The notes under the pieces are model-generated. The model saw only the letters and a list, made by a program, of their open reading frames with translations. It was not told the origin of the DNA and did no database searches. Both the position numbers and the translations under genes were made by a program. Of a stretch of 64,000 bases of DNA, positions 2,932 to 33,536 are shown one piece after another. Every line of letters begins with the position of its first letter. Within the stretch, counting starts at the first letter, position 1. The stretch is from Candidatus Omnitrophota bacterium (GTDB lineage: Bacteria; Omnitrophota; Omnitrophia; Omnitrophales; JACROU01), in NCBI GenBank assembly GCA_029261035.1, contig JAJDCD010000008.1, positions 186,001 to 250,000 of the forward strand. Direction: 5' to 3'.

Positions 2932-3819
2932 TTAATAAGTTAAAATTGCTTCTTTTTCTTTCAACTCTTTTTCTTTATTTTTTTGATTAAGTTCTGAAGC
3001 TTCAGTATCGGGAGACTTACCTTCTATTTCATCTCTGGCATGTTCAACAAGTTCTCTTCCAATAACTTTTTTATCTCTAACAAAAGCTGCCAACAATGCT
3101 TTATCACAAAGAACATTAACAAGACGGGGAACCCCTTTTGAATAAGTAAAAATGACCTCTAACGCTTCTGCGTCAAAAGGACAATCTTTTTCAAACCCTG
3201 TGACACTTAATCGATAATCAATGTATTTAACCAGTTCTTCTCTATCTAAAGCTTTTAAATGATATCGAATACTGATTCTTTGTCGCAATTGAGTCAAAGC
3301 CGGATTTTTTAAGTGATCTCTTAGCTCCGGTTGCCCCACCAATATAATTTGCAGCAGCTTCTCTCTCTCAGTTTCTAAATTAGAAAGCAAGCGTATCTGC
3401 TCTAAAGCTCTAGGCTTCAAGTTCTGAGCTTCATCAATAATCAAAACAGCATTCCCCCCATTTCTCAGTTCTTCTAAAAGAAATGCATTCAAAGCATCGA
3501 AACACCCTTTTTTTGTTTTATTCTTAGGTTGGATTCCAAAATCTTCCACAATAGCTTGTAAAAGCTGTGAATCCGATAAGTCTGAGTTAAACACAAAAGA
3601 AGTTTTTACTTTTCCCTTAAGATCATTAATAAGAGCTCGACACAAAGTCGTCTTACCCGCACCAATCTCTCCTGTAATTTCTAAAAAACCTTTTTTCTGG
3701 TCGATTCCATACAAAAGAGATGCAAAAGCTTCTAAATGTTTTTTTGAAAAATAAATAAATCGAGGATCAGGAGTCATGTTAAAAGGATTTTCTTTGAAGC
3801 CAAAGAAATCATTATACAT
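2932..3819 (-). CDS. ExeA/GspA-type AAA ATPase
   Basis: 295 codons. The N-terminus (MYNDFFGFKENPFNMTPDPRF) is the classic opening of ExeA/GspA ATPases. Walker A is GEIGAGKTT at about residues 50-58, Walker B is AVLIIDEAQ near 123-131, followed by a sensor-like RLLSNLE and a C-terminal winged region with GVPRLVNVLCDKALLAA. In Aeromonas the family couples peptidoglycan remodelling to secretin assembly with GspB. This protein ends in a charged tail and I see no C-terminal peptidoglycan-binding domain or membrane helix, so it is the short ATPase-only form. The GspB-like gene follows directly. A good GGAG ribosome site precedes the ATG. Confidence 0.8.
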   Translation of the reverse strand: MYNDFFGFKENPFNMTPDPRFIYFSKKHLEAFASLLYGIDQKKGFLEITGEIGAGKTTLCRALINDLKGKVKTSFVFNSDLSDSQLLQAIVEDFGIQPKNKTKKGCFDALNAFLLEELRNGGNAVLIIDEAQNLKPRALEQIRLLSNLETEREKLLQIILVGQPELRDHLKNPALTQLRQRISIRYHLKALDREELVKYIDYRLSVTGFEKDCPFDAEALEVIFTYSKGVPRLVNVLCDKALLAAFVRDKKVIGRELVEHARDEIEGKSPDTEASELNQKNKEKELKEKEAILTY

Positions 3820-24553: not shown

Positions 24554-27500
24554 TTAGGCTGCTATAAGGACCTTACGCATATTCTGCCATTCCTGAACAA
24601 GGTCTTGAAGAATCTGAGGCAATAACAGTAAGGTGTTAGAATCACGGTCTCTTTGAAATAATTCCAGCAAAGCAGATCTGTTTTGAGCGACATAGAAAGA
24701 AGCTGCTAGATAAGCTCCACGATAATCAGAATCACGGCTAAATTTTTCTGCCTCAAACTGAATTCTTAAATCGCCTTCTTCCCAGTCTGCGGTGTTAAAA
24801 GAGTCATTCAAAAATACAGACTCTGCTAAATTAATTCCATTTGGAAAGTAAGGTCTTAAAAAGAACATCGATTTTTCTAAAAGGGCTTCAACATCTTTTG
24901 ATAACATCTGTGTCATAGGTCGTTTCCACAAAAGAAGGGCAACCCGATAATCTTTCCAAAGACGCATCACACCTCCATACTCTCGAGCAATATCCGATAT
25001 CTGATTTTTATCTGAAACTAAAAACACAACCATATTCGCTTTATTACCATCCCGCACATCCTCATCTCTTCGAGTTAACTCTTGTAATACTCCTTCTGTA
25101 TTCGAATTCAACTCCATAAAAATCGGAGTAAGATTTCTTTGCTCTTGAACAGAGTGAAGAATTACTTGAGCTTGCCCCAAACTTTGTCCTGTTGCAGCCG
25201 CTGCTTGTCCTGCATTCGAAAGCTGCCTTGAAATTTGTTGAAGCAGCATAGCCGTATGGTCTTGTGGGGTCCCAAACCCTAGAACACTCACATTCCTAAA
25301 GGAGTCAGAAGCTGTTTGAAAACGTGCGCGAACAGTACTGTTTCTTCTACCCACCAAAACATGCCGCCATCTTCCTGTTACAGCAAGAGCAAAGTTTAGA
25401 TATGCTTTTTCTTCTTCTATCTTACTTGCTGCTAGAGCCGTTCGCACTTGTGTTCCTGTCATCTCTTCAGCAGCAGCATTTGCTCCGGTAATAATAAAAG
25501 AGTATCTAGCCGGAATCACTCTTCCAGACAGTTTCTCTGTCTTAAATATTTCAAGACCTCGAAACCAGTTTTTAGCGCGTAACAAACTTACTTGTTGCAA
25601 ATTCTCATCAACAATATCTCTTTCATCATTAATCCTCAAATCATAGTTAAGCGCTTTAAGAAAATGATGTTCTAAAGACATCCAAATACGAGCATCAGAA
25701 ACTCCTGAGTAATCGTTCTGATTAGAACTTCTAACTTTAGACCAAACAACTCTCATTTGTTGAAAAGCTCTTTCTGCTAATTCATTCGCTTCATTTGACC
25801 CCGTTTTATATATATTAAAAGCCCTCTGGTCTGTTCTTAGTGCCTGTTCATCAATACTAGGAATATCAGACCACTTTGCATAAGCTTCTAACAAGTTAAT
25901 ATCCGCCAACACCTTTAATGCTTGTATTTCAGCAAAACCTGCTGGGGTATTCACATCCCCCACAAATCCAATTCCACCTCTTGCTATTTGCTCACCAGAC
26001 CCTGTTTTAATGATTCTAATTTGAGCATCTGTTGCTCCCATACTTTTCATCCACTGCTCTATACGAGTTCGAGCTCCATCAAAATTATTATCCGCAGCTA
26101 AATAATACGCTTCCATAGGATAAGCTTTCTGAACCCAAGTAGATTGAGGATAAGCCGTCCTCAATGACTGCAACTCCGAAAGTGCTGTAGCATACTCACC
26201 GTTATATGCCGATAAATGGGCTATTGCCCACAAATATTCTTGATGTTCTGCTGGAGTCAGTTGTTTGATTTCATTTTCAGTAGCTAGATTTTTAAGCGCT
26301 CTCACTTGCTCTAAATAATCATCAAGAGTTAAGTCGGATCTTAGTTTTTTCAGTAACGCTAATTTCACTTTAACGTGATAAAACCTAAGAAAAGAAAGAT
26401 AAGCTCTATCTGAATGCACTGAAAAATGATTGCTAAATTGCCTATCAAAGCTTGTTAATGCATCCTTGTTAATAGAAGCATCCTCCAAGCCTTGTTTAAC
26501 TAAAATCAAAAATGAAACTAACCCTCTCAATTGTCGAACTTTTGTCTCAAGAGTTGTATCTTTTCCAATTAATTTATCTGACGCCTGATCTAACAAGTTT
26601 TTTGCATCTGCCCATTCCCCTGATTTAATTTTAACCTCAGCCTGAGCAATCAAAGCCCTACCTTCTTCAATTTGAGAGGCTCTTCTCTGTCTTTGAGCAT
26701 CTAAAGCAATACGCGCTTGATACTTCCTCCAACCTTCTGTTATCAAGTAAAACGCAGCCCCTCCAAGTAAAACAACAGACAGTAATGCCCCTAACACTAA
26801 CTGCCCTCGTCTTTTTCTTAGACTTCTTTTTCTTTTATCTTTCTGCGCTTCCACATTACGATTTTCAAGAAAATTTTCAAGATCTTCTGCTAATTCAACA
26901 GCCGAAGGATATCTACTCTCTTCACTTTTTTCCATCGTCTTAATAATTATTTCTTCTAAGTCTTTAGGTATTGCCGGGTTAATTTCACTAGGCCTTTTAA
27001 AATCATTAAGCATAATTGCTGACATAAGCATTAAGGAAGAACTCGCAGTAAAAGGAAGCTGCCCCGTTAACATGTAATACAAAATAGCTCCTAACGCCCA
27101 AACATCGGTAGGTGCCTTTGCATCCCTAGCCAAACCCGTTGCTTGTTCTGGAGACATAAATGATGGAGTTCCTATGACAGCTCCTGTTCTTGTTAACTCC
27201 TCAGCTCTGGCCTTTGATGTCAACTTCGCCAAACCAAAATCTGTAACATAAGGAACACTCCCTTCCCCTAAAAGGATATTTTGAGGTTTTAGATCTCGAT
27301 GAATAAAATCTCTTTTATGCACCCTTGCCATAGCTTCAACAATTTGTTTAAACAACACCGTTCTATCTCTAATAAGCTTCTCAGCTTCTTTTGATTTAGG
27401 TTTACTTGGAATAATTTCCCCCTGATCTATCCACCGTCTTATTTGCTCTTCTAAATCCCCGCCCTCGACAAACTCCATAACAAAAAAGGGCTCTTCCTTG

Positions 27501-30500
27501 CCCTCTCTTAATCGAACGTTGCCTACTGCGTAAATTTTAACAACTCCCATAAAATCTAGCTGTACCATTGATTCAGCTTCTTCTTTGAAACGTAACATTT
27601 CCTCAGCACCTGCGTGTTCAAGAAGTCGTTTTATTGCTACTTTTCTTCCTGTTTTAGATGCCCTAAAGTCCAACCCTTGGTACACAGCTCCCATACCCCC
27701 CTTAGCTAAAAACTTCGTAATTCTAAACCTCCCTGCTTGTTGCTGATTAAATAAACGGACAAATCCATCCGTCTGCTGTAAATAAAGTGTATCTGGATCA
27801 ACAGGACTCATCTTTGCCATTAACTTAGGTGAAACATCCCCAGGCTGAAGCCCTACTTGAGTTCTCCCTTCAGCAACCGTACCTCCAGACAAACTAGGAG
27901 AGACCACAGAAGTAGGCGCTCTCGCTATTACCATCCGATAGGATCTTCCATTAACATTGACATAAAAATCAGGATTCAAACCATTCGCATCCAGAACAAT
28001 AAAAGGAGGATCAATGTTAGGCTTACTCCACTTCTCATTATTCTCAAAGGTCTGAAAATAGAATTGAAAAGTAGTTCCATTTAAAGGGATGGGTACAAAA
28101 TATTGCGCTTGGATGAAAGCTTGTTGAGCCTGTTGCAATAGAGAGACAACAGGACCTTTATTCAAAGCCGCATAAGCTTGACGATATTGCTCCAAGATTT
28201 CAACTGCTGTCTCAACAGGTTTATCTCCTAAACTCTGCGCTTCAACAGATCCTTCTTCTCTCCAAACTGTTAATAGATCTCCCATTAAATTCACATCATT
28301 AAATTGATCGGCAGCTTCTGCAAAAGCTGCTCCCTGAGTCGCTTTTTGCACCCAGCCTCTAAAACGTTTTACGCGCGCGGATGTTGGAATACCAGAAGTT
28401 AAATCAACTCTTCTCTGACGAATCACCCGCCCCAATAGTTGAAAGTAAGTTTTAGGATCACTCGATAACTCTTCATCTCCCTTTACCGTTCTTAACAACA
28501 ATCGAATATCAGAAAGTCTTTCTTTATTTTCATCACTCAGTTGATTAAAACTACTTAACAAGCGTCCTAATTGCCGACTGGAGTTAGAAGCTATATTCGA
28601 TTGCTCTCTTGCCCCATTAGACAAGTTGCCCAAATCACCCATTAAGGCCTCAATGCCGATAGAATAATCAAGCCCTGCCAAAAATGCTAAACGTAAATTT
28701 CTGATTTGAGCAGGGTTATTTGAATTTCCAGAGGATTGAATAATGGCTAAAATACTAGCCTGTAATGACTGAGAGTAATAATCTTCTATTTGTCGAGAAA
28801 GCTCCCTTTTCTTACCATACAAAGCTCCCAGTTCAGAGCTTGGATGCCCTTGTCCTGGAGTCCAACTTCCAGATCGACCATCAGGTTCTAAAATTTGTCT
28901 ATAACGTCTCATAGTAATCAACTGCTCAAGAACATATGTATCTAAAATAGCGCGTCTTAGTTTTAAACGATTCACTGGATCTGAATTTTGCAAATCAACC
29001 GCCTGTAAACCTTGACGTGCAGTTTCAAATTGAGCATTTTCCCCACCAATTGCTTTCATCAGTCTAATTCGAGCTATAAGTAAATGAGAAGAAGTCATCA
29101 AATTAGAAGATGCAAATCGAGATTGGAAATCCGACAGAGTTGTCAATGAAGCATCCAAACTTCCCATTCGATATTGGATAGTCGCTTTCTTCCAAGTATT
29201 AGCTTCATTCGTAGCATTTGCTGAATTAGAAATTTCTCGCAGAGCCAAAGCATACATATGGTTGGATAATGAAACATTGTTTTTTTCACCAGGCAACCTC
29301 AAAAGAAAACCCAGGCTTTCAAATAAACTAATTTTATCTGTGCCCGTTGTTCCTTGAAACAAATCAGAAGAAGAGAAATCTGATGATGATGGCCTGGTTG
29401 ATTGAGTTAATAAAAATGATAGTCGATCAGCTATTAAACTTAACACACCTTCATTTAAACCTTTATTTAATTGAACAGACTGACTTGACTTGGATAACAA
29501 AATACGAGCAAGACGATTAAAACGAGTTTTATCGGTATCATTTAAATCACCATATCGACTCGCAACTATATTTAAATCATTGAACGCTTGAGAAATATCG
29601 GGACTCTGTTTTTTTAACTCAGTATCTGCTGACTTAAAATTTACGCCAATTTGCTGAGTTCTTAAAGATGTGATTACTTCTTGAACCCTTGCTTTTAACG
29701 CAGCAGAAAATAGAGGCACTTCTTTAAAAGTATCTATCAAGGCTAAAATACGACTTACATCCGCAGGACGAGCAGAGTCTCCCTTTTTAATCTCTGCATC
29801 TGCTTGCTGCAACGCCGTAACTAACTGTCTCATACTTAAAACCTTCGCATCTAACCGAGGCCTTTCTCCAGAATTAATACTTCGAGCATCATCAATTAGT
29901 TTTATTGCATCATCATACCTTCTATCCAAAATTGCTTGTTCTGCATCATTAATATGATCTGCTTTTAACGTTAACTCTTGATTCCTTTGATAGTCCTTAT
30001 ACATAGAGCTCCCAATAGAAAAAGCGCCTAACATAGCTAGAGTAACAATTGCAGCTGCCAAGATTCCCGCAACAGCTTTATTTCTCTGAATTAACTTTTG
30101 TAATCGATAAAAAAGACCTTGGTTTTTAACTGCTTGAACAGGTTGGTTATTCAACCAACGGTCTAAATCGTCTGCCAACTCACTTGCAGATTGATAACGA
30201 TCTGAAGGTTGCTTTTCTAATGCTTTTAAAATAATTGCTTCGATTTCTTTTGAAACCTTAGAGTTTTGACTTCGAATTGGAGTTGGATTCTGCATTGAAA
30301 TAGCAGTTAAAACAGCCGTCAATGAAGGCCCTGAAAATGGATACTCTTTGGTTAAAGACTTATAAAGCATTCCCCCTAAAGCCCAAACATCTATGCGATG
30401 ATCAATTTCTGTAGATTTATTAATTTGTTCGGGAGCCATGTAAACAGGTGTTCCCAATATATCTCCTGTTCGAGTTAAAGCTTCTTCACTATTCACTAAA

Positions 30501-33130
30501 TGCGCTAAACCGAAATCAGCAATCTTAGTAGAACCATCATTAGCAATAATCACATTAGCAGGTTTTAAATCACGATGGATCACCCCTGCTTTATGAGCCT
30601 TATCTAAAGATCGTGCAACATCTCTAATAATCCGAACTCTTTCTCTTAACACTTCATCTGATGTTGGAACAGGAGATTCCATAATCACATCCCTAAAATC
30701 TTCACCTTCAACAATGTCCATTGCATAGAAAGGCCTAAGACCATATTGAGGATGTTGAACTTGTCCAATAAATCGAGATTGAACAATTCCGGGGTCATTT
30801 ACTTGAGCCGCCGCTTGTGCTTCTCGTTTAAAACGAATAAACGACTCTGCATCGATAGCAGCTTCAAATGGAATCACTTTTACAGCTGATTGCCTTGGAG
30901 TTCCTGGGATTCTCAAATCCACCGCTTCATAAACAACCCCCATAGCTCCTCTTCCCAACTCTCGTATTAATCTAAACTGAGGTACCTGTTGAGAAAACAA
31001 CTGAACCATCGCATCTCCCGATGGAGGCAATTCGCTTTGATTTAAAGGAAGAGTTCCAGTTCCTTGTCTTTCTGTTCTACTTACAGAGTCTGCAGCAACC
31101 TGCACATCCGTGATTGCCGTCAATTTAAAATGATAACCATCGATAGTCACATGATTCGTTCTAGGATCCTGTCGCAACAAAATATCTTGAACTTGCCTAC
31201 CTGGTTGAATTTGAGGAGACTTCCAAGTGTTACCTTGGTAAATCTGAACAATAAAATCCATTACTTGACCTTGGAAGTTAATTCTAAACGGCTGACCTAA
31301 TGGATCAATTGATTCTCTATTTCGTCGATCTCTTACATTGCGAACCAACTCTTGCATAACCTCCATCCAAAAAGCATCTTGCATATTTTGGCCATAAGTC
31401 ATGATGATTTTTTCAAACATGACATCACGAGAATCACTTTCAATGCCCAAAGATGCAGCCACAGCTTCTGGAACATCATAGTACGGCAAAGCTCCGATTT
31501 GAGTTGCCGCAGCTTCCAGCTTGAATGCAGGATCATCTAACCGAGGCTCTAATTTAACCGTTCCTGTTGCTGGATTTATAATTTGATTTAAAGACACTTC
31601 TTGCTTAGCCAACAATTCCCAATACGGAGATGTGTCCCAATCAGGATCCGCAATCGGTGTCATCACCCAATAAGAAATATCTTTGTCTTTTAACCGCTTC
31701 GCAATCCCTTCGGTATGGAAACCACCTGCAACAACAAAAATAATTTTCTGCTTGGTGTTTTTTAATAGTTTTTCGATGTTTTGGGATAATGCTTCATCCC
31801 TTTTGTAAACATATTCATAATATTGAAAAGCAGAAGACATTAAAGAAATCATACGAAGCATTACAGGGTCACTTCTAAAAGTAAAACCTCGACGTTCAAA
31901 TAGGTCATCTAAGGACTGCCACCAAACCTTTGTTTGGATAATATCCATACGAGACATCAGCTCTTGATAGTGCTTGTTCTCTAATTCCAAACGAGACAAC
32001 TTGTCTAAAAGCATAAAGTCTCGATCCACCTGAATCAGCATTCTTTCGTCACGAGAACGAGCTAGAAGTGGGTAAAGCTTCTTTTCTAAGCGCTCTAATT
32101 GCTCAAAAAAGTCACTCGATGCCAATACATCCATTTCTTTTTGAAACTTGATCCAACGAGCAAAAACCTTATTTTCATTTTTAAGACCTTCTGACTGTTG
32201 ATTCCAAAAAGAATTTACTCTTAGCATCCATTGAGATTCTGGTTCGTCAACACCTCTGATCATCCCCCATTCGCTCAAAAGTGCTTTAATTCGTTTTTGA
32301 TCTAATTTACTCTCCTCTTGAAACAATAGAGACATTTGCTCAATTGCTGGATACAGATTTAAACTTACTCCCTTTTCTGTAGATAGTTGAATTAAAAGCC
32401 TTAGATAGACTCTTAACTGATTTACATCTTTTTCAAATTGGTCTTTAATTTGTTCTACATCTCGAAGTTGTTTGGAGTAGACTTGATTTTTAAGGCGGTT
32501 TACTTCTAATTTCGTATTTTCTATGGCTTTAACAACTGAAAACTGATGGTCTAAAAAGGAGCGATAGGCACTCACATTTTTCTGGTACAAATTCTTACTA
32601 TCAATCCCCCACAATTTAGCTTTTCGATTATTGTTTATTGCGTAATACTGGGCACCATCAATCTTGCCATCCCACATAAAAGAGTTCGTAACATCTCGGG
32701 TAATTTCCGGAACAGGAAAAGCGGTGAAAATCAAAGGGTTAATTTCTTCCGGACCACTTCCTTCAAGACCAATCGTAATCTCTTCAGAAAGCCCCATAGA
32801 AACAAGCTTGTCTTCAAAGTAATCCAGTGTAGAAATAATATTTTGTTGGGCTTGAAAATTGGCATGAGCTTCTTGCAACAAAACCACAAGAGGATAGTCC
32901 CCTAAAGGTTTTTCTTCTGTCTCCGGAGACATCCAGAAAGATTCTCTATCGACTATCTCATTAGATAACCCACTCAAAAAAGATTGAGGAGAAACTAAAG
33001 TAGGAGCACCCATCATCGGGTTTGCTTTTGCAGGTAAAGGTATAAATACGGAAGTAACAACAAAGCAAATCAGAACGACTAAAGATGTAAAGAATTGAAA
33101 ACTCTTATGCTTCAAAATTAAAACCTCCAT
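24554..33130 (-). CDS. Giant exported-type protein with two Ser/Thr kinase domains
   Basis: 2858 codons. Residues 1-36 form a signal sequence ending PLPAKA. Region about 80-500 has LLQEAHAN and, at its end, VAGGFHTEGIAKRL, as in ChaN/TraB-like domains (low certainty). About 600-700: beta-rich pre-domain. About 719-990: kinase 1 with GRGAMG, the VAIK-type Lys751, HRDLKPANV (851), DFGL and APE. About 1015-1040: membrane helix. About 1040-1680: helical, TPR-like. About 1683-1760: second pre-domain. About 1801-2080: kinase 2 with AKGGMG, Lys1833, HRDLKPQNI (1944), DFGL and SPE. About 2107-2133: membrane helix, then 725 residues I cannot assign. Both kinases keep every catalytic motif. GGAGG at 33124-33128 sits eight bases before an in-frame TTG at 33115, which may be the true start. 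Confidence 0.9.
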   Translation of the reverse strand: MEVLILKHKSFQFFTSLVVLICFVVTSVFIPLPAKANPMMGAPTLVSPQSFLSGLSNEIVDRESFWMSPETEEKPLGDYPLVVLLQEAHANFQAQQNIISTLDYFEDKLVSMGLSEEITIGLEGSGPEEINPLIFTAFPVPEITRDVTNSFMWDGKIDGAQYYAINNNRKAKLWGIDSKNLYQKNVSAYRSFLDHQFSVVKAIENTKLEVNRLKNQVYSKQLRDVEQIKDQFEKDVNQLRVYLRLLIQLSTEKGVSLNLYPAIEQMSLLFQEESKLDQKRIKALLSEWGMIRGVDEPESQWMLRVNSFWNQQSEGLKNENKVFARWIKFQKEMDVLASSDFFEQLERLEKKLYPLLARSRDERMLIQVDRDFMLLDKLSRLELENKHYQELMSRMDIIQTKVWWQSLDDLFERRGFTFRSDPVMLRMISLMSSAFQYYEYVYKRDEALSQNIEKLLKNTKQKIIFVVAGGFHTEGIAKRLKDKDISYWVMTPIADPDWDTSPYWELLAKQEVSLNQIINPATGTVKLEPRLDDPAFKLEAAATQIGALPYYDVPEAVAASLGIESDSRDVMFEKIIMTYGQNMQDAFWMEVMQELVRNVRDRRNRESIDPLGQPFRINFQGQVMDFIVQIYQGNTWKSPQIQPGRQVQDILLRQDPRTNHVTIDGYHFKLTAITDVQVAADSVSRTERQGTGTLPLNQSELPPSGDAMVQLFSQQVPQFRLIRELGRGAMGVVYEAVDLRIPGTPRQSAVKVIPFEAAIDAESFIRFKREAQAAAQVNDPGIVQSRFIGQVQHPQYGLRPFYAMDIVEGEDFRDVIMESPVPTSDEVLRERVRIIRDVARSLDKAHKAGVIHRDLKPANVIIANDGSTKIADFGLAHLVNSEEALTRTGDILGTPVYMAPEQINKSTEIDHRIDVWALGGMLYKSLTKEYPFSGPSLTAVLTAISMQNPTPIRSQNSKVSKEIEAIILKALEKQPSDRYQSASELADDLDRWLNNQPVQAVKNQGLFYRLQKLIQRNKAVAGILAAAIVTLAMLGAFSIGSSMYKDYQRNQELTLKADHINDAEQAILDRRYDDAIKLIDDARSINSGERPRLDAKVLSMRQLVTALQQADAEIKKGDSARPADVSRILALIDTFKEVPLFSAALKARVQEVITSLRTQQIGVNFKSADTELKKQSPDISQAFNDLNIVASRYGDLNDTDKTRFNRLARILLSKSSQSVQLNKGLNEGVLSLIADRLSFLLTQSTRPSSSDFSSSDLFQGTTGTDKISLFESLGFLLRLPGEKNNVSLSNHMYALALREISNSANATNEANTWKKATIQYRMGSLDASLTTLSDFQSRFASSNLMTSSHLLIARIRLMKAIGGENAQFETARQGLQAVDLQNSDPVNRLKLRRAILDTYVLEQLITMRRYRQILEPDGRSGSWTPGQGHPSSELGALYGKKRELSRQIEDYYSQSLQASILAIIQSSGNSNNPAQIRNLRLAFLAGLDYSIGIEALMGDLGNLSNGAREQSNIASNSSRQLGRLLSSFNQLSDENKERLSDIRLLLRTVKGDEELSSDPKTYFQLLGRVIRQRRVDLTSGIPTSARVKRFRGWVQKATQGAAFAEAADQFNDVNLMGDLLTVWREEGSVEAQSLGDKPVETAVEILEQYRQAYAALNKGPVVSLLQQAQQAFIQAQYFVPIPLNGTTFQFYFQTFENNEKWSKPNIDPPFIVLDANGLNPDFYVNVNGRSYRMVIARAPTSVVSPSLSGGTVAEGRTQVGLQPGDVSPKLMAKMSPVDPDTLYLQQTDGFVRLFNQQQAGRFRITKFLAKGGMGAVYQGLDFRASKTGRKVAIKRLLEHAGAEEMLRFKEEAESMVQLDFMGVVKIYAVGNVRLREGKEEPFFVMEFVEGGDLEEQIRRWIDQGEIIPSKPKSKEAEKLIRDRTVLFKQIVEAMARVHKRDFIHRDLKPQNILLGEGSVPYVTDFGLAKLTSKARAEELTRTGAVIGTPSFMSPEQATGLARDAKAPTDVWALGAILYYMLTGQLPFTASSSLMLMSAIMLNDFKRPSEINPAIPKDLEEIIIKTMEKSEESRYPSAVELAEDLENFLENRNVEAQKDKRKRSLRKRRGQLVLGALLSVVLLGGAAFYLITEGWRKYQARIALDAQRQRRASQIEEGRALIAQAEVKIKSGEWADAKNLLDQASDKLIGKDTTLETKVRQLRGLVSFLILVKQGLEDASINKDALTSFDRQFSNHFSVHSDRAYLSFLRFYHVKVKLALLKKLRSDLTLDDYLEQVRALKNLATENEIKQLTPAEHQEYLWAIAHLSAYNGEYATALSELQSLRTAYPQSTWVQKAYPMEAYYLAADNNFDGARTRIEQWMKSMGATDAQIRIIKTGSGEQIARGGIGFVGDVNTPAGFAEIQALKVLADINLLEAYAKWSDIPSIDEQALRTDQRAFNIYKTGSNEANELAERAFQQMRVVWSKVRSSNQNDYSGVSDARIWMSLEHHFLKALNYDLRINDERDIVDENLQQVSLLRAKNWFRGLEIFKTEKLSGRVIPARYSFIITGANAAAEEMTGTQVRTALAASKIEEEKAYLNFALAVTGRWRHVLVGRRNSTVRARFQTASDSFRNVSVLGFGTPQDHTAMLLQQISRQLSNAGQAAAATGQSLGQAQVILHSVQEQRNLTPIFMELNSNTEGVLQELTRRDEDVRDGNKANMVVFLVSDKNQISDIAREYGGVMRLWKDYRVALLLWKRPMTQMLSKDVEALLEKSMFFLRPYFPNGINLAESVFLNDSFNTADWEEGDLRIQFEAEKFSRDSDYRGAYLAASFYVAQNRSALLELFQRDRDSNTLLLLPQILQDLVQEWQNMRKVLIAA

Positions 33131-33459: not shown

Positions 33460-33536
33460 TGGCGCGCCCGAGTGGATTCGAACCACTGACCCTTTGCTTA
33501 GAAGGCAAATGCTCTATCCAACTGAGCTACGGGCGC
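33460..33536 (-). tRNA. tRNA-Arg, anticodon TCT, CCA encoded
   Basis: 77-nt tRNA. Acceptor stem GCGCCCG with CGGGCGC, discriminator G, encoded CCA. Anticodon stem TTTGC/GCAAA encloses loop CTTCTAA, giving anticodon TCT (decodes AGA/AGG). T-loop GTTCGAAT. It is a single tRNA gene between the giant kinase gene and the DUF3047 gene; no integrase or direct repeat marks it as an attachment site. Confidence 0.97.

Follow-up and report, generated by a model that had tools for sequence, protein, structure and literature searches.

Giant proteins are an established feature of the phylum Omnitrophota. Their giant open reading frames have been published (Seymour et al. 2023, PMC10066038), and the available excerpts report a protein of 39,678 amino acids (aa) in V. 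archaeovorus LiM. In the excerpts available from PMC10066038, PMC12419801 and PMC12057145, such frames are poorly conserved and surface or predatory roles are proposed for them. Genes that seem both unconserved and unannotated are puzzling. Here we describe one giant, P0001, encoded in a 64,000-nucleotide stretch of Candidatus Omnitrophota bacterium (assembly GCA_029261035.1, contig JAJDCD010000008.1, positions 186,001 to 250,000; hereafter the window). An earlier note on this DNA had singled out its two complete Ser/Thr kinases. Judged from sequence, the twin kinases are one module type present twice, and the main point is a pentapeptide, the tag, which stands at module borders throughout a family of giants that also have a common N-terminal domain (N-domain) and C-terminal tail.

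The described systems closest to P0001 differ from it in various ways. The giants of PMC10066038 come from the same phylum and are huge exported-type proteins, some with transmembrane (TM) helices, and the genome studied here has one of 16,198 aa. In the excerpts of that paper, they are poorly conserved with few annotated domains, and a TIKI-type N-domain, tag or tail is not mentioned. The P0001 gene, at 8.6 kb, lies under the 20 kb limit used there, but clear paralogues with the N-domain and tail of P0001 reach 48.6 kb. Lipocone, enzyme and histidine-kinase domains are known from gigantic multi-domain Omnitrophota proteins, which likewise mix enzymes, signaling domains and TM segments in one giant and for which prey sensing and breaching are proposed; a common N-domain, tag, tail or Ser/Thr kinase pair is not mentioned in the available text (PMC12419801). 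MARTX autoprocessing multi-effector toxins are comparable in how they work, since one secreted giant chain carries several effector domains, of which one (RRSP) is a TIKI peptidase. In contrast, the P0001 family has a Sec-type signal peptide, about 50 paralogues per genome and enzymes of central metabolism among its modules, and neither RTX repeats nor a cysteine protease domain are among the Pfam matches of P0001. PknB/Stk1 receptor kinases resemble P0001 in the order of catalytic domain, basic stretch and TM helix, whereas P0001 has no PASTA repeats, two kinases per chain, and a signal peptide and TIKI-type domain ahead of them. No mention of the common N-domain, tag or tail was found in the available text of the giant-protein literature, journal articles being the scope. 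The earlier note knew of no system with this architecture, and none was found in the literature; nevertheless, P0001 is not a one-off but one of about 50 giants in its genome. A unique architecture without relatives is ruled out by these paralogues and by orthologues in a sister genus.

A family of giants with a common N-terminal domain

The genome (G000) comprises 2.70 Mb in 26 contigs, and the sequence examined consists of the stretches around family members and tag matches. When the genome was searched with P0001, the N-terminal region (residues about 20-540) recurred in dozens of other long open frames. At least 44 proteins carry the N-domain, amounting to 137,495 residues or 15.3% of the genome; the N-domain profile gives 53 matches, as some proteins match twice. 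The longest member is a single frame of 16,198 aa (G000:C26:18885-67481, L012-L014, 48.6 kb) with the same N-domain start and the end AQAA. Across the sampled genomes, the profile matches 143 of 285 in the phylum and all 47 of the order, and the named records with an N-domain belong to Omnitrophota, apart from single matches in Auribacter, in a metagenome-assembled genome (MAG) labelled Elusimicrobia and in an unplaced MAG. We regard the family and its module anatomy as practically certain. In other lineages, L071, L113, L119, L120, L121 and L130 are stand-alone N-domain proteins of about 520-610 aa that lack a giant extension, possibly the ancestral form.

The 44 paralogues share about 20% identity. 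Apart from the start Met, nine residues are the same in all of them (H89, E123, G175, Y438, R444, G469, G470, H472 and P492), and position 87 (E in P0001) is D or E with few exceptions. In 74 N-domain sequences from across the phylum, the His, Glu, Arg, GG and His remain invariant. An AlphaFold model of the N-domain (pLDDT 85.6, pTM 0.81), built with sequences of the window and of related loci, was compared with known structures, and the best seven were ChaN (Z 10.3), EreC (9.0, two rows), HopBA1 (8.3) and BcR135-type proteins (7.9-8.1); these TIKI-superfamily rows rank above unrelated structures, which score Z 7.4 and below. In the model, then, the predicted fold is that of the TIKI superfamily (ChaN/EreC/TraB), which upholds the ChaN/TraB-like region read earlier from the letters. 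Pfam is silent on the P0001 N-domain and finds ChaN (PF04187) in 4 of the 74 relatives, with a best E of 2.7e-4, and a search of the PDB with the N-domain sequence profile gave chance matches only. For RRSP, a TIKI relative, endopeptidase activity has been proven, and its 2His/2Glu site has the order E-x-H, E, H (PMC6254334). The N-domain has E87-x-H89, E123 and H472 in that order, matched by motif order and fold and not by residue-level superposition. Because the residues are invariant, an enzymatic role is likely. Fold and E-x-H / E / H order are thus the likeness to the superfamily (Tiki/TraB, ChaN, erythromycin esterase, HopBA1, RRSP), from which the N-domain differs by a helical insertion of about 250 residues between its halves and by heading giant proteins.

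Pentapeptides, tails and modules

The tag PENTAPEPTIDE, [AG]xSLG, occurs at 205 sites in 44 proteins of the genome, and for A.SLG alone 158 sites are observed in these proteins where 4.1 are expected. The sites lie between domains: one of the 205 falls in an N-domain core (26 expected), and none of 49 in a Pfam domain (9 expected, P about 5e-5). Their median spacing, 415 aa, is that of a single-protein length. Apart from the motif and the two residues preceding it, the flanks hold near-zero information and have drifted to random, and near-misses at four positions are seen at background level only. The DNA form, with 171 matches genome-wide against 21 for a reversed control, is almost exclusively in frame and sense. 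This bias, together with the background level of near-misses, argues that the tag is read at the protein level, and it rules out a DNA-level signal of the uptake or chi-like kind.

The pentapeptide changes with lineage. [AG]xSLG is found in the GTDB family of P0001 (G001, G002) and in one giant of G007, whereas in other families of the order RSE[LVM]R takes its place: there, 20 giants contain 105 RSExR against 5 AxSLG, compared with 1 RSExR against 63 AxSLG in the own family. RSE[LVM]R was seen between modules at L055, L056, L118 and other sister-family loci, the two pentapeptides being nearly mutually exclusive by lineage. Such a swap is what would be expected for a tag read by a co-evolving partner. 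A pentapeptide universal in the phylum is ruled out, as it is absent or replaced in other lineages. At the codon level, the Ser of all AxSLG sites in the genome is AGT or AGC in 77% of cases against 33% in the family (AGT alone 63% against 24%), a bias that may reflect common descent of the copies or an effect on the mRNA; the RSExR serines are mostly TCN codons.

The giants also end alike. Among the complete members, 38 of 39 end in Ala and 30 in Ala-Ala, against one Ala-Ala in 22 control open reading frames of the same stretches, and that one is the end of another giant. All 38 complete giants longer than 1,000 aa end in Ala and have a common final amphipathic helix, with hydrophobic residues at -22, -19, -18, -15, -14 and -11 and I, V or L at -5. 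In other orders, giants end in SL/AL or in WSV/SV (L062, L063, L149, L150, L161 and others), so the type of tail follows lineage; neither AxSLG nor RSExR was found in giants of these SL- and SV-tail lineages. Three adjoining giants (G000:C16:204493-228490; starts C16:204493, 213754 and 222674; L167, L168) have a signal peptide, tags from residue about 60 and an Ala-Ala tail, and no TIKI-type N-domain was detected in them. Since tag and tail persist there, the factor that recognizes them can work in trans.

What stands between the tags varies widely. A member of 3570 aa (L041:444-11153, G000:C4:35440-46152) contains isocitrate lyase (KKCGH kept), malate synthase, GTP-dependent phosphoenolpyruvate carboxykinase (PEPCK) and an ELFV dehydrogenase. 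PEPCK (residues 2185-2839) lies between tags at 2163 and 2843, and the dehydrogenase (3063-3234) between those at 2843 and 3303. By predicted domain content, this is a set for the glyoxylate shunt and gluconeogenesis behind a signal peptide. Its PEPCK reads APSASGKTN, with Ser at a position which we take to be Cys in the usual motif. The idea that giants carry the cell's only copies of such enzymes is ruled out for PEPCK, of which an ordinary stand-alone gene exists at C21:91436. Other members have a Macro plus histidine phosphatase unit flanked by tags at 3149 and 3584 (C16:99816), an ARMT1 unit with a methyltransferase (C15:57771), or pyruvate phosphate dikinase, UDP-glucose dehydrogenase, phosphoglucomutase, AAA_5, WD40 and histidine-kinase ATPase domains. 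Whole unrelated enzymes as modules are hard to fit into one machine, and easy to understand as separable products.

Kinases are one more kind of module. The two kinase modules of P0001 are alike over 500 residues (30% identity, E 3e-58). A kinase search found orthologues in a sister genus (L074, L075) in which a single kinase module, with a tag on either side, separates the N-domain from the same C-terminal domain (39% and 32% identity); they have no other tags, and P0001 has its extra tag exactly between the kinase modules. P0001 is therefore the same layout with the module doubled, and in this comparison the second kinase module is an extra copy. An identical order in orthologues, which the earlier note proposed to look for, thus holds for N-domain, kinase module and C-terminal domain, with one kinase module there instead of two. 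A weakly supported kinase tree groups both P0001 kinases with that of L074 and three others (88/86) and does not resolve the age of the duplication. The best NCBIfam match for the P0001 kinases is PknB; the NF033483 cut-off was passed with two kinase stretches, the best of which aligned to profile positions 9-279 of 563 only, and Pfam finds no PASTA repeats after the TM helices. A paralogue of 3398 aa (L009, G000:C16:19771-29967) has five Pkinase domains with tags directly ahead of several, and together with P0001 accounts for seven of the eight Pkinase matches of the genome. Some of its kinases have altered HRD/DFG motifs (HQD, HLD, FDLG), and it has no TM helix except the signal peptide.

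A putative exported polyprotein and its alternatives

The tag sites, their spacing and the borders that they mark fit a polyprotein, from which separate products may be released. Our preferred reading, at about even odds, is that P0001 is an exported polyprotein of the Omnitrophota giant family, probably cut at its tags, and we put cleavage at the pentapeptides itself at similarly balanced odds. In such a scheme, the P0001 chain would enter the Sec path through its signal peptide, and the pentapeptides would be cut by a site-specific protease, which could be a TIKI-type domain of the same protein or of another member, or else a separate enzyme. This would give four products: the N-domain, receptor-like kinases 1 and 2, and the C-terminal domain. 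The C-terminal helix with its Ala-Ala could be recognized in trans as a signal for sorting or processing. The kinases would then act at a membrane outside the cytoplasm of origin, with the envelope or a partner or prey cell as the likeliest places. That the N-domain is the cutting enzyme seems doubtful to us, and action in or on another cell is a tentative suggestion. A still wider proposal, which we consider possible though somewhat improbable, is a chromosomal polyprotein system of about fifty exported giants, in which a lineage-specific tag code would be cut by a co-evolving protease to release effectors, including kinases and whole metabolic routes (for example the glyoxylate shunt together with PEPCK), that would serve outside the cell, probably in a host or in prey. 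We know of no bacterial polyprotein system of such scale.

Several observations weigh against this scheme. No cleavage has been seen, and linkers avoid domains anyway. For the N-domain model, the best Foldseek match is not significant (E 0.1), and VIA alignments to TIKI folds span 146-192 of 497 residues. Moreover, N-domain and tag are separable: the three adjoining giants described above are tagged and tailed without an N-domain, and some lineages have the N-domain without the pentapeptide. The strongest objection is topology. Under the positive-inside rule, basic residues flanking a TM helix lie on the cytosolic side; those before both TM helices of P0001, kept in L074, L075 and L077, place the kinases in the cytosol, but the stretch from signal peptide to kinase 1 contains no TM helix, and nothing returns the chain after an exported N-domain. 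This is unlike simple export. The conflict would be solved if cut modules were delivered into the membrane of another cell, or if cleavage preceded insertion.

The same topology bears on two other explanations. Kinase, basic stretch, TM helix and helical (TPR-like) region are the usual layout of bacterial receptor kinases like PknB or those of planctomycetes (kinase-TM-TPR), and P0001 could be such a kinase, duplicated, fused to a secretion leader and signaling in its own cell. Both the PknB match and a TM topology suited to a cytosolic kinase favor this explanation, which leaves the tags, the tail, and the signal peptide and N-domain of 44 otherwise unrelated giants unaccounted for, and the five-kinase paralogue without further TM helices does not fit it; we hold it to be improbable. 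Alternatively, the chain may stay whole as a scaffold, with the pentapeptide as a site of docking or of modification (its Ser, common to AxSLG and RSExR, might for instance be phosphorylated or glycosylated) by which modules are fixed to a surface or partner, and the kinases acting within one chain. The absence of a direct sign of cleavage and the location of tags in linkers agree with a scaffold, and giant Omnitrophota proteins are treated as surface structures in the available text of PMC10066038. However, the tags mark module borders rather than regular steps, no scaffold feature is common to the modules, which are whole enzymes unrelated to one another, and a single chain with two TM helices that are basic on the N side is awkward in topology too. 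On balance, an uncut scaffold appears rather unlikely.

The tag might also be a scar with little function of its own, spread through module shuffling by recombination at short common linkers. The excess of AGT/AGC serines points to common descent of the copies, and module content is highly shuffled, but a scar would hardly leave near-misses at four positions at background while its flanks drifted to random, or give sister lineages a different and equally strict tag with mostly TCN serines; we rate this origin as improbable. Returning to the polyprotein, if the tag is cleaved, the two P0001 kinases end up on separate chains. Of the cis or trans phosphorylation that the earlier note envisaged between two kinases in one chain, the two kinases are real, and the cis form would not be the working state after a cut. 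Cleaved pentapeptides would mean bacterial polyprotein processing on a large scale, and uncleaved ones a new linker or sorting code. In either case, N-domain, lineage-varying border pentapeptide and tail turn these giants into one family with testable rules, whose open frames can be divided into modules for annotation, and P0001 offers a handle with two assayable enzymes and three predicted junctions.

The twin-kinase gene

The features of P0001 are collected in Table 1, where the signal peptide and TM helices were called by hydropathy alone. The gene is intact at the positions first described, with 2858 uninterrupted residues and neither stop nor frameshift inside, but it lies on the minus strand. 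The assembly join named as a possible pitfall is argued against by L074 and L075, which carry N-domain, kinase and C-terminal domain in a single frame. The signal sequence, both membrane helices and both kinases that had been read from the letters were recovered by hydropathy and Pfam. Both kinases retain the Gly loop, the Lys, HRDLK (852, 1944), DFG (872, 1964) and the subdomain IX Asp. Their catalytic motifs being complete, both are predicted to be Hanks-type Ser/Thr kinases, but the motif list given before needs correction at two points: VAIK applies to kinase 2 only (kinase 1 has SAVK), and APE to kinase 1 only (kinase 2 has SPE).

Table 1. Features of P0001, in positions of the window and residues of the protein
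Feature	Residues	Positions	Strand	Basis
Whole gene, ATG to stop	2858 aa	24554..33130	minus	open reading frame and translation
Signal peptide (KHK, hydrophobic 14-32, AKA)	about 1-36	33023..33130	minus	hydropathy; paralogue starts similar
N-terminal TIKI/ChaN/EreC-type domain (predicted)	about 80-518	31577..32893	minus	conservation, predicted fold
Pentapeptide AASLG, C-terminal of N-domain	558-562	31445..31459	minus	motif scan
Kinase module 1 (beta domain, kinase, TM, helical region)	563-1630	28241..31444	minus	Pfam, hydropathy, module comparison
Ser/Thr kinase 1	720-981	30188..30973	minus	Pfam
TM helix 1, N side basic	1019-1037	30020..30076	minus	hydropathy
Pentapeptide AQSLG, between both kinase modules	1631-1635	28226..28240	minus	motif scan
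Kinase module 2	1636-2647	25190..28225	minus	Pfam, hydropathy, module comparison
Ser/Thr kinase 2	about 1805-2074 (Pfam match 1804-2082)	26909..27718	minus	Pfam
TM helix 2, N side strongly basic (KRKRSLRKRR)	2112-2130	26741..26797	minus	hydropathy
Pentapeptide GQSLG, start of C-terminal domain	2648-2652	25175..25189	minus	motif scan, orthologue comparison
C-terminal domain, common to L074 (39%), L075 (32%), L077 (28%)	2653-2858	24557..25174	minus	comparison
Amphipathic C-terminal helix, end IAA-COOH, family tail		24557..24625	minus	family tail comparison

The gene stands isolated between its neighbors, a tRNA-Arg (33460-33536) and, in the same orientation as P0001, an aminotransferase-like gene. 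Elsewhere in the genome, one family member (G000:C16:528766-536502, L169) has no tail at its end, and a second frame that contains a tag follows directly; the probable cause is a broken gene or an error of assembly. Repeated YWNGK.YE units occur inside several giants and on a small contig (L172 on G000:C11, L027, L022), and this contig is probably a repeat-rich giant that broke the assembly.
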